Positions 45,331 through 49,039 of a DNA stretch of 49,497 nt are shown here, piece after piece; positions within the stretch are counted from its first letter, which is position 1, and each line of letters opens with the position of its first letter. The DNA comes from a virus. The DNA lies in IMG/VR virus record IMGVR_UViG_3300037584_000897, positions 1 through 49,497 of that record. The stretch is one strand, 5' to 3'. Under the pieces are notes generated by a model. It made no database searches. It was not told the DNA's origin and saw only the letters and a list, made by a program, of their open reading frames with translations. The translations under genes were made by a program, and so were the position numbers.

Positions 45331-45546
45331 TTAGTCGCACTTATCTTTTCCTGCACAGTCTTTGGGATAACAATGCACTTGCATAGAATAGTAGTCATTT
45401 TTGTAACTAGCTGCCCATTTATCATCTTGTAACATATATTCACATTGTTTTTCGGTCATGGGTTCTTGCAGTGCTAGTTGTCCTATATAGTGATCTGTAA
45501 CACCATCACTCCCCCACATACTTATGATCATTATCCACTCTTTCAT
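45331..45546 (-). CDS. Small exported Cys protein (71 aa)
   Basis: A mildly hydrophobic N-terminus (EWIMIISMWG) followed by a segment with several cysteines (C34, C58, C64, C70), including the acidic/basic end DCAGKDKCD. The start shares a base with the stop of the Rieske-like gene (TAATG), so it is translated with it. Similar in design to 43669..43863 and 46632..46838. Function unknown. Confidence 0.6.
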   Translation of the reverse strand: MKEWIMIISMWGSDGVTDHYIGQLALQEPMTEKQCEYMLQDDKWAASYKNDYYSMQVHCYPKDCAGKDKCD

Positions 45547-46628
45547 TATGCTGCCAGTGCGGGATTACTAGCATCCACTTGCATCCACTTAGACCACTCT
45601 GCATAATAGTGGCGCATACCTACTTCATCGTGGATTGTGCTATTCTCATGTCGTCCATGCAAGATGTTACGGGGTTCTGTACCTTCTCGCATTGTAGTGC
45701 CTTGACCTGCGACACCAATCAGGTCTTCGTGTAAATTTCTACCAAACGGTCCCCATATGGAGTTATGATGTTTGATACGAGTGTTACGCTCTTCAGGCGT
45801 GTCCTTTTTAAGACCATATCCACGAAATTCAATAAGAACTTTGTTTGGCCCAAGAGGTGTAACGCTATCGCTTCTATAAGCACTACCCCGCAGATTAAAA
45901 TTAAATCCGGGAAATAGGTCCACCATGTACCATTGATTGGGTGGGAGATTAGGGAAACTAAGCTCTCCTCTATCCTCAAAGCCATCGTACTCCTCGTAGT
46001 TGACTGTGAAACTGCTGACATTAACATGTCCGTTATCAAATGGTATATTCTTTCTAGCAAAATACTCATCATTAAATCCTGACACACGATTAAAGTAATG
46101 CATAAAGTCGTGGTAGAACTCGCTGTTGGTATCGTGCCACAGTTTGTAGTTTGTATCTATTACGGCTTTGTGATAGTGGAATACTTCCATTTCTTCTGCA
46201 TCTATTGCATCTGCTATGCAATCAAATGCACCCGCTGTCCACTGGTCTACACTTTGAGTTGGGTTAGGGTCTAGTGTAACCCAAACCATGCCGCCGTGCT
46301 TAACTTCACTGTGCAAAGGTTTTTCTACGGTAGCAAAATCATAGGTAATATTTCCAGCAGGTTTACGATGGTCAATATCGTTAGTATTATAATAAGCCTG
46401 AACATTCTCACCGTCTATGTTTATTGCAATAACTCTTTTGTCTGCAATTCGTGTAGTTCTGTAGTCGCCCTTGTTCCGCATCTCACTGATGTGACACATA
46501 GGCACCCATACTTTAGAAAATATGTTTTCTTGTTCTTGTTCATATAAACTGCGGTCAGAATATATAACAGAGTTTATGTACTCTACTTTAGGTTTCTTTG
46601 TCCAATCTTTATGATTACGTGGGGGCAT
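45546..46628 (-). CDS. Rieske-type ring-hydroxylating oxygenase-like, Rieske ligands missing
   Basis: 360 residues. The N-terminal part follows the oxygenase alpha-subunit pattern (YSDRSLYEQEQENIFSKVW, SEMRNKGDYRTTRI, AYYNTNDIDHR). The C-x-H and C-x2-H ligands of the 2Fe-2S cluster are absent; only two cysteines occur (C45, C137), neither in the motif. The catalytic domain keeps EFYHDFMH (H173, H177) and a late D302 (HEDLIGVAGQ), so a mononuclear iron site may remain, with H-x3-H instead of the usual H-x4-H. HMO-2011 is remembered as carrying a methanesulfonate monooxygenase MsmA-like gene; this is probably its counterpart. Activity is uncertain. Confidence 0.75.
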   Translation of the reverse strand: MPPRNHKDWTKKPKVEYINSVIYSDRSLYEQEQENIFSKVWVPMCHISEMRNKGDYRTTRIADKRVIAINIDGENVQAYYNTNDIDHRKPAGNITYDFATVEKPLHSEVKHGGMVWVTLDPNPTQSVDQWTAGAFDCIADAIDAEEMEVFHYHKAVIDTNYKLWHDTNSEFYHDFMHYFNRVSGFNDEYFARKNIPFDNGHVNVSSFTVNYEEYDGFEDRGELSFPNLPPNQWYMVDLFPGFNFNLRGSAYRSDSVTPLGPNKVLIEFRGYGLKKDTPEERNTRIKHHNSIWGPFGRNLHEDLIGVAGQGTTMREGTEPRNILHGRHENSTIHDEVGMRHYYAEWSKWMQVDASNPALAA

Positions 46629-46838: not shown

Positions 46839-47229
46839 CACCGTTTCTCAGCTTTTCCAAGTTTTCTTCTAAATTTGTAATACGTTTCTCATAAAACTCT
46901 AGTGTTAGCTTTTGCTGCTGGTCATATGGAGCCTTACCACCTTCTATATCTGTTTGCAACTTTTCTAGTTCACCTGCAAGATGTTCTATTAACATATACT
47001 GCTCAGAGTCTGCTGGCAAGCTACCCATATCACCACGAGGCCACTTTATACGAAACTCAGTATTCTGTGCTAAATCAGATTCCATCATGGTGATGTTAGT
47101 TTCTATCTGGTTCAGTCTTTCTATAATACCAAAGTATGCCCATGTTGCCACGGACGCTGCAGCAACCATGCTTAGTATGTTACGTAATGGTAACGCGACT
47201 TCTGTGTTTTCGTTTAGCTTTGTAGGCAT
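46831..47229 (-). CDS. N-anchored coiled-coil protein (132 aa)
   Basis: A short polar start, a hydrophobic segment (about 16-36, ILSMVAAASVATWAYFGI), then a long acidic coiled coil (IERLNQIETNITMME through EKRITNLEENLEKL). Such N-in membrane proteins with a periplasmic coiled coil resemble i-spanins. It is followed directly by a small exported Cys protein, the arrangement of some Rz/Rz1 pairs, although here they overlap only slightly. The role is inferred. Confidence 0.6.
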   Translation of the reverse strand: MPTKLNENTEVALPLRNILSMVAAASVATWAYFGIIERLNQIETNITMMESDLAQNTEFRIKWPRGDMGSLPADSEQYMLIEHLAGELEKLQTDIEGGKAPYDQQQKLTLEFYEKRITNLEENLEKLRNGDG

Positions 47230-47513
47230 TAGTTTCTATAACCGCCACCAGCTTTCTTATAAGCAGATGCAAGCATTTGGGCTTTTCTTGCACTCCACTG
47301 TCCGGGTGCGCCACCTTTACCACCAGCTTTAATTCTATTAAACTGTTGCTTACGCATCGTAGGCTTGGTGTAGTTTCCGGCTTTGTTTACAGTTGAGCCG
47401 CCCTTATTTAGTTTTAAACTAGATAAAGTTTTAGCTTGCTTGGCATGTAACTTAGAGGCTTTCTTTAAACCCCTAACTACTTTCTTTACCTTCTTTTTAT
47501 TTTGTGAGGCCAT
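47229..47513 (-). CDS. Lys/Gly-rich basic protein (94 aa)
   Basis: A very basic protein (KKKVKKVVRGLKKASKLHAK, KGGSTVNKAG, KAGGKGGAPGQ, then YKKAGGGYRN) with almost no acidic residues and no Cys. It is probably disordered and nucleic-acid binding. It lies immediately after the SET-domain gene (2-base gap) and could be a second substrate candidate. Unnamed family. Confidence 0.6.
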   Translation of the reverse strand: MASQNKKKVKKVVRGLKKASKLHAKQAKTLSSLKLNKGGSTVNKAGNYTKPTMRKQQFNRIKAGGKGGAPGQWSARKAQMLASAYKKAGGGYRN

Positions 47514-47515
47514 TT

Positions 47516-47866
47516 TTATCTACTCTCCCAATAAGGTTCGCCATAATCATGTAGTATTTCTTCACCCTTTTTTATTTCTTTAACTGCAAAGAACTCAATA
47601 AATCTCTCATCCTCTTCAGAAATATTCCACTCAGCGTTTGGAGTTTCACTATGATTGTAGACCATACCAAGACCAAGCGGGACAAGATAGTCTTCATCAT
47701 CTTCATAGGGCGAATAAAACATGTAGTCGTGCAATACACAAGTATCTCCAAAGTCATCTTTATCAGCGACAAGATAAGGACACATCTCAATTGTATCGCC
47801 TTGAGAATAGTCCTTATCTGCGAAGACACCTTGTCCGTGTATAGGTGAATCTTTAACATATGGCAT
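47516..47866 (-). CDS. SET-domain protein (lysine methyltransferase-like)
   Basis: 116 residues with the core SET motifs in order: SPIHGQGVFA (7-16, the SAM-site GxG), GLGMVYNHSETPNAEW (65-80, the NHSxxPN knot piece) and EIKKGEEILHDYGEPYW (97-113, with Y108). SET enzymes methylate protein lysines with S-adenosylmethionine. It is small, lacking pre- and post-SET regions, like other bacterial and phage SET proteins. Its ATG shares a base with the stop of the Lys/Gly repeat gene (TAATG), and another Lys-rich gene follows. Substrate not known. Confidence 0.82.
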   Translation of the reverse strand: MPYVKDSPIHGQGVFADKDYSQGDTIEMCPYLVADKDDFGDTCVLHDYMFYSPYEDDEDYLVPLGLGMVYNHSETPNAEWNISEEDERFIEFFAVKEIKKGEEILHDYGEPYWESR

Positions 47867-48021
47867 TAACGTCTTTTCTTTTTAGCCATTTTTGCCATGC
47901 CGCCGCCCATCATTTTTTTGCGCTTTGCCATTTTTGCCATGCCGCCTCCGGCCATTTTACGTTTAGCCATTCCACCGCCACGCATCTTTCTTTTTGCCAT
48001 TTTAGCTTTACCCATTGCCAT
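47866..48021 (-). CDS. Lys/Gly/Met repeat protein (51 aa)
   Basis: ATG 48021 to TAA 47868..47866. The protein is built from repeats of GGGMAK, RKMAGGGMAK and KKMMGGGMAK, with 17 Lys or Arg, 12 Met and no acidic residue. The GGGMAK unit occurs three times. It overlaps the end of the preceding gene by 14 bases and is coupled to the SET gene by TAATG. It is easily missed because of its size. Disordered and DNA-binding is the likely physical character; it is an obvious possible SET substrate. Confidence 0.7.
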   Translation of the reverse strand: MAMGKAKMAKRKMRGGGMAKRKMAGGGMAKMAKRKKMMGGGMAKMAKKKRR

Positions 48022-48589
48022 TTCGTAATCTCCTTCTATCAATAACTAAGGCTTCATATACGTCTTCTGGAAAATGCTTATAGTAATCACACTTTTCCAG
48101 ATATAACGATGCATCGTCTAGTTTAGATAACAACTGCACAAAGACCATGCAATAAGATAGGCTGTCATCAGTAACCTCGTCTACGAGGAAATCTAATCCA
48201 GCCTCTGTTGCGTCATAGTTGGGGTGGAACACCATCAGGTGCAAATCAATACCTGCCACTGACGCTAACTCATTTATGCCATCACAATACCCATCTAGGT
48301 ATTCCATGTCTGGCAAATTCTCTTCTGCCCACACTACTATTTCGTAGTCGTGGCTATTAAAGTTACGGATCTCTTCCATGAGTCCGTCTAATCCTGTATT
48401 AATACTAAAGACTACTTTGTTATCTGCCCACGCTTTACGTGCATATGGACACGGTGGCAGACCATTTAACTTTGCGTTAGGTACTTCCAAGAAATCATGT
48501 GACCACTTGCGTATGTCAGCTTCTACGGGATGCACGGGTCTTTTTCTTTTGTGATTCAATAAATCTTCGGTATACATTAGCTGCAGCAA
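48008..48589 (-). CDS. Conserved hypothetical protein (193 aa)
   Basis: Begins with a basic stretch, then RPVHPVEADIRKWSHDFLEV and GLPPCPYARKAW (about 18-53), followed by an alpha/beta domain (KVVFSINTGLDG, DYEIVVWAEENLPD). The PPCPYARKAW box looks like a conserved catalytic or metal-binding feature of a phage family I cannot name. ATG 48589 or 48577 could start it; the first 74 bases overlap the upstream basic gene in another frame. Function unknown. Confidence 0.65.
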   Translation of the reverse strand: MLQLMYTEDLLNHKRKRPVHPVEADIRKWSHDFLEVPNAKLNGLPPCPYARKAWADNKVVFSINTGLDGLMEEIRNFNSHDYEIVVWAEENLPDMEYLDGYCDGINELASVAGIDLHLMVFHPNYDATEAGLDFLVDEVTDDSLSYCMVFVQLLSKLDDASLYLEKCDYYKHFPEDVYEALVIDRRRLRNGNG

Positions 48590-48815
48590 TCTTCCCTGCT
48601 GCCCTAGCCCGTTGTTCCATTGCGATAGCCGCCTGTGTCTTATGATTGTGACTTCTGTTAGACGCCTTTATCTTACGCACAGATGCCTCTGCATCTTTGA
48701 CTGTAGCAAACTTCAGACCTTTGATAGTACCCTTCGGGTTCTCATCTGTGTACAGGTCACTATGCTTTTTAGAACCAGCAGGTTGCCCTTTCTTTCGTGG
48801 AACTCTGGGAGCCAT
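48516..48815 (-). CDS. Basic conserved phage protein (99 aa)
   Basis: Basic (Lys/Arg-rich) with a conserved-looking order: PRKKGQPAGSKKHSDLYTDE, ENPKGTIKGLKFATVKDA, then a helix SHNHKTQAAIAMEQRA and a C-terminal KKKTRASRRS. Similar proteins occur in other marine phages (from memory, unnamed). It overlaps the 193-aa gene by 74 bases and shares a base with the next upstream gene. Possibly DNA-binding. Confidence 0.6.
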   Translation of the reverse strand: MAPRVPRKKGQPAGSKKHSDLYTDENPKGTIKGLKFATVKDAEASVRKIKASNRSHNHKTQAAIAMEQRARAAGKIAAANVYRRFIESQKKKTRASRRS

Positions 48816-49039
48816 TATGACTTTTCAAGAATGTTCTTAACTACGTCAGGGCGTACCTTTTGTAATGCTTGTAAGCCCGGATTTAAATCTTTAACAGAAC
48901 CACCTTCGTTAAGATACATATGCTTCTTTCCATTAGCCATGCCACCCATAGCCATTTTCATTGGACCCGTTTTACCTTTAGGTATATCAGCCATGCCTAC
49001 AGATATAGAAATGACGGGGACTTTTTTCTTCTTATTCAT
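48815..49039 (-). CDS. Gly/Met/Lys-rich small protein (74 aa)
   Basis: Contains KKKKVPVISISVGMADIPKG, the Gly/Met stretch MKMAMGGMANGKKHMYLNEG and a helical end (LNPGLQALQKVRPDVVKNIL). The NEGG/GG motif resembles stretches in the 1180-aa and 766-aa virion proteins. ATG 49039 shares a base with the stop of the preceding gene. Unknown function. Confidence 0.6.
   Translation of the reverse strand: MNKKKKVPVISISVGMADIPKGKTGPMKMAMGGMANGKKHMYLNEGGSVKDLNPGLQALQKVRPDVVKNILEKS

Follow-up and report, generated by a model that had tools for sequence, protein, structure and literature searches.

Some phages of the HMO-2011 type encode a small SET-domain protein, and on balance we lean modestly towards regarding it as a host-derived accessory lysine methyltransferase, which occupies a variable slot in the late operon and probably acts on the host enzyme's own target. 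The gene was found in a window of 49,497 nucleotides (the whole stretch of viral DNA analyzed; IMG/VR record IMGVR_UViG_3300037584_000897). Phages have hardly been explored for protein-lysine methylation; this enzyme is widespread and under selection in one of the most abundant groups of ocean phages.

SET-domain protein in an HMO-2011-type phage

The phage in the window is of the HMO-2011 type. Its plus strand encodes an integrase, DnaB, PolA, a Cas4-type exonuclease and RNR; its minus strand carries lysis, terminase, portal and capsid genes. The nearest isolate is HMO-2011 (TerL 87%, DNA polymerase 78%). No tRNA was found in the window, and the host of the phage is presumably a member of SAR116. 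Positions 45546-46628 encode the alpha subunit of a Rieske ring-hydroxylating oxygenase (Pfam, 1.9e-7); at the equivalent location, HMO-2011 has a gene with the annotation methanesulfonate monooxygenase.

The SET gene (47516..47866) belongs to a cluster on the minus strand, near the start of the late genes and upstream of the lysis and packaging genes. It is preceded by a gene for a 51-aa protein with GGGMAK repeats (47866..48021; hereafter GGGMAK) and followed by a gene for a 94-aa Lys/Gly protein (47229..47513) of a family with a C-terminal GQWSARKAQ (phrog_17747, PHROG 2.9e-31). The constant neighbor upstream of GGGMAK is a 193-aa acidic protein (48008..48589; phrog_28122, PHROG 2.8e-73), which shares 76% identity with its HMO-2011 counterpart. 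The stop codon TAA of GGGMAK and the start codon ATG of SET share a single A (TAATG), and two nucleotides separate the SET stop from the start of the 94-aa gene. An earlier note on this DNA had described the three genes in exactly this arrangement and had drawn attention to the overlap. We do not consider the overlap a mark of special coupling, because one-nucleotide overlaps are found in 6 of the 16 adjacent gene pairs at the window end that carries the cluster, the GGGMAK-SET pair counted.

The identification of the 116-aa product as a SET protein, also proposed in that note, is sound. Residues 11-109 match PF00856 (7e-14; 52.6 bits against a cut-off of 22.4). Among proteins of known structure, the best sequence match over the full length is PBCV-1 vSET (A612L; 1n3j, 3kma), the chlorovirus H3K27 methyltransferase (5.6e-18), and the AlphaFold model (pLDDT 86) likewise finds vSET as its best fold match (3kma, E 6e-10, target TM 0.85). 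Both proteins are stand-alone domains of about 116 residues without pre- or post-SET regions, whereas their identity is only about 36%, and vSET comes from a eukaryotic virus and has a histone substrate, the phage protein having a putative target only. The SAM-site motifs GxG and NHxxxPN and the catalytic tyrosines are conserved. Specifically, G11, G13, Y48, N71, H72, N77 and Y108 are invariant in 29 sequences from phages, SAR116, Nitrospinae and myxobacterial relatives; five of these (G11, G13, N71, H72 and N77) are SAM-site residues, which the earlier note's proposal had required to be conserved. Residues Y48, Y108 and Y112, all three invariant among the phage proteins, align with Y50, Y105 and Y109 of vSET, which we take to be its catalytic tyrosines. 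By family, then, the protein is a genuine minimal lysine methyltransferase of the vSET type, and judging from its sequence it is very probably active as a SAM-dependent protein-lysine methyltransferase.

GGGMAK-SET junction in related phages

A search of viral contigs with the SET protein yielded 80 relatives, of which 76 have identities of 68-97%, and at least 82 distinct SET proteins are present in related viral contigs. Four of the 82 loci are cut upstream of SET and were left out of the adjacency count. In 76 of the 78 assessable cases GGGMAK lies directly upstream (within 20 nt), and in the other two (L135 and L147) a single gene intervenes. The linkage expected by the earlier note thus holds in relatives for GGGMAK, but not for the 94-aa protein, whose family is found immediately after SET in just 29 of the 78 cases; a virion-like protein of 117-123 aa follows in 20, and another gene or none in 29. 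Moreover, 16 phage records, among them those of HMO-2011, CRP phages and pelagiphages, contain relatives of the 94-aa protein, and in none of these records did we find a match to the SET protein of the window. The tie between the 94-aa protein and SET is therefore weak.

The relationship looks different when it is viewed from GGGMAK. Using the 193-aa neighbor as a synteny anchor, we compared 157 loci. GGGMAK is present in 155 of them, including HMO-2011, and SET in 81 (L146 was counted as SET-positive from its sequence). GGGMAK occurs without SET in 63 metagenomic loci having at least 1.5 kb of downstream sequence, as well as in HMO-2011 and CRP-345. In HMO-2011 it corresponds to an unannotated 50-aa ORF (L082:4503-4655; GU557055.1, about 50628-50780, complement) between phage1322_66 and _65. 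A tblastn search of phages with a GGGMAK-type consensus gave no match, a result made uninformative by low-complexity filtering. Hence, the tie is strong seen from SET, while no such tie is seen from GGGMAK: GGGMAK belongs to the core genes of these phages, and SET is an accessory gene in a variable slot behind it. The junction after GGGMAK in loci lacking SET is usually occupied by a gene for a 119-aa virion-like protein, a 36-aa basic protein or a probable membrane peptide of 39-45 aa, and in HMO-2011 by the gene for a 419-aa structural protein; the replacing genes are joined by a similar start-stop overlap. Across L250-L326, the slot holds genes for the 419-aa structural protein, virion-like proteins of 119-123 aa, the 36-aa basic protein, probable membrane peptides of 39-45 aa, or SET.

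Given that the slot takes many different small genes, SET might be thought a neutral passenger hitchhiking in a tolerant intergenic position with no selected role. This is very improbable, since the median dN/dS among the phage SET genes is 0.14 (1418 pairs) and the catalytic residues are intact over a wide clade. The gene is kept by purifying selection.

The earlier note had proposed that the enzyme and its Lys-rich substrates form a dedicated unit. This proposal is not supported: neither GGGMAK nor the 94-aa family is confined, even mainly, to phages with SET, and the 94-aa family, besides being common in SET-less phages, usually does not adjoin SET. As both Lys-rich neighbors occur in many phages lacking SET, they are not established as its targets. 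The leading rival to our reading retains only part of the proposal, namely that SET methylates GGGMAK, and possibly other Lys-rich late proteins, from the same message, thereby tuning phage-DNA binding or virion packaging. The near-constant position of SET directly behind GGGMAK could mean a real functional tie, and co-translation of the two is likely. The two proteins are strongly charged with opposite sign: SET has a pI of 4.1 and a charge near -20, GGGMAK a pI of 12 and a charge near +19. There is also an archaeal precedent: the prokaryotic SET protein Go1-SET has MC1-alpha, a DNA-binding protein, as its substrate in vitro (PMC3980110). That substrate was shown biochemically, whereas GGGMAK is only a candidate. 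On the other side stand the many phages in which GGGMAK does without SET, the two loci that keep both genes with another between them, and the SAR116 SET proteins, which have no GGGMAK neighbor. Taken together, we consider this alternative possible, if on the unlikely side.

The composition of GGGMAK itself at first seems to favor the same alternative. Among 99 distinct loci, the motif A[AS]K is found in the GGGMAK tail in 0 of 65 SET-positive and 32 of 34 SET-negative cases, and the last 40 residues contain on average 33% Lys in the former and 27% in the latter. The split is real, but it follows phage phylogeny. On the tree of the 193-aa protein, the presence of SET changes only about four times, and a single contrast falls on branches with support. 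Furthermore, A[AS]K is also absent from the outgroups CRP-345, L144 and L149, none of which has SET. The pattern was therefore set aside as weak evidence for a substrate relation, being largely a matter of phylogeny with few independent contrasts.

In several loci (L065, L038, L051, L053, L009 and L042), GGGMAK proteins encoded just upstream of SET join extra N-terminal segments of differing sequence to a common tail of basic repeats, which gives the tail the look of a modular tag. Short basic tails of the GG-M/V-x-K or NEGG/NKGG type are also present in unrelated late proteins (window 48815-49039; L082:2642-3679; L339:1444-1821); CRP-1 gp65, for example, has KKGGMAKKKK close to its end. Such tails may represent a shared tag for the virion or for DNA binding. 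One may go further and suppose that GGGMAK is a histone-tail-like DNA-binding protein, which in SET-positive phages is methylated by a lysine methyltransferase recruited from the host. We regard this as unlikely; if true, it would be a bacteriophage counterpart of histone-tail methylation.

SAR116 relatives and possible role of the phage enzyme

A search of genome contigs revealed SET proteins with 54-57% identity to that of the phage in two alphaproteobacterial MAGs, in a chromosomal context that by inspection includes SpmA-like, PlsC-like, PfkB and TRAP genes. The gene is present in 54 of 136 genomes (species) of the putative SAR116 order (Puniceispirillales). Among 385 sampled genomes of the class, matches outside this order reach at most about 42% identity with far weaker E-values. 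A chromosomal SET is also carried by G079, the putative genome of IMCC1322, the host of HMO-2011. Thus, a close homolog does exist in a non-viral, chromosomal context of the host lineage. The genome of Candidatus Puniceispirillum marinum IMCC1322 has been published (PMC3368413).

In the phylogenetic tree, SET proteins of HMO-2011-type phages form a single clade (support 99/95) positioned beside the SAR116 proteins and not nested in them. Judging by these comparisons, the SAR116 chromosomal proteins are the only close cellular kin of the phage SETs. A single transfer from host to phage appears most likely, transfer from phage to host being formally conceivable. The SAR116 proteins resemble the phage ones in length, motifs and acidity and are the presumed source of the gene. 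They differ in being encoded by stand-alone genes in varied chromosomal contexts; among those examined, none had GGGMAK or another Lys-rich partner gene nearby. A search of eight SAR116 genomes for GGGMAK, which had no positive control, found none. Since its nearest cellular kin stand alone, the ancestral target of SET was probably something other than these Lys-rich neighbors.

The scenario we favor is as follows. The SET gene would have passed once, probably from the SAR116 (Puniceispirillales) lineage to an HMO-2011-type phage, and would then have been held by selection, settling in a variable cargo slot that directly follows GGGMAK, a core gene, early in the late operon and ahead of the lysis and terminase genes. 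Because the slot lies directly behind GGGMAK near the operon start, the product would be made late and is probably co-translated with late proteins. Its most likely function would be to boost, during infection, methylation of the protein modified by the host's own SET, perhaps a basic nucleic-acid-binding or ribosomal protein.

The divergence between phage and host SETs (about 55% identity) is, however, large enough for specificity to have changed. As another alternative, the phage enzyme might methylate a host protein at a new site, for instance one of the nucleoid, transcription or defence, and thereby block or retune the host. The nearest solved homolog, vSET, provides a model for such action, being packaged and trimethylating K27 of host histone H3 (PMC7019647). 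However, bacteria have no histone H3, the phage gene is located among virion, lysis and packaging genes rather than early takeover genes, and the protein has no PADLOC or NCBIfam match and no match to a defence family. Host retuning of this kind seems quite unlikely to us. The cultured host lineage has a chromosomal SET homolog, and the cultured HMO-2011, lacking SET, offers a natural control.

SET domains in other phages

The literature searched contained no account of SET in phages of the HMO-2011 type and nothing relevant on lysine methylation by phages. A survey of HMO-2011-type phages (PMC9038755) is silent on SET domains, and its section on metabolic genes lists none. The branch of SET proteins shared by SAR116 and its phages, together with its genomic slot, thus appears to be unreported. 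That SET proteins occur in phages, as the earlier note had remarked, is correct: they are already annotated in Stenotrophomonas phages Moby, Mendera and vB_SmaM_Ps15 and in uncultured Caudovirales. As far as we searched, these annotated domains, like the SAR116 proteins, are functionally unstudied. The Stenotrophomonas phage proteins are about 30% identical to a SAR116 SET query and are encoded in far larger genomes in an unrelated context. In addition, an about 40% identical SET gene without a Lys-rich neighbor is present in a probable T4-like phage (L077-L080), where it is flanked by metallophosphoesterase-like and ATPase-like (SbcD/SbcC-type) genes.
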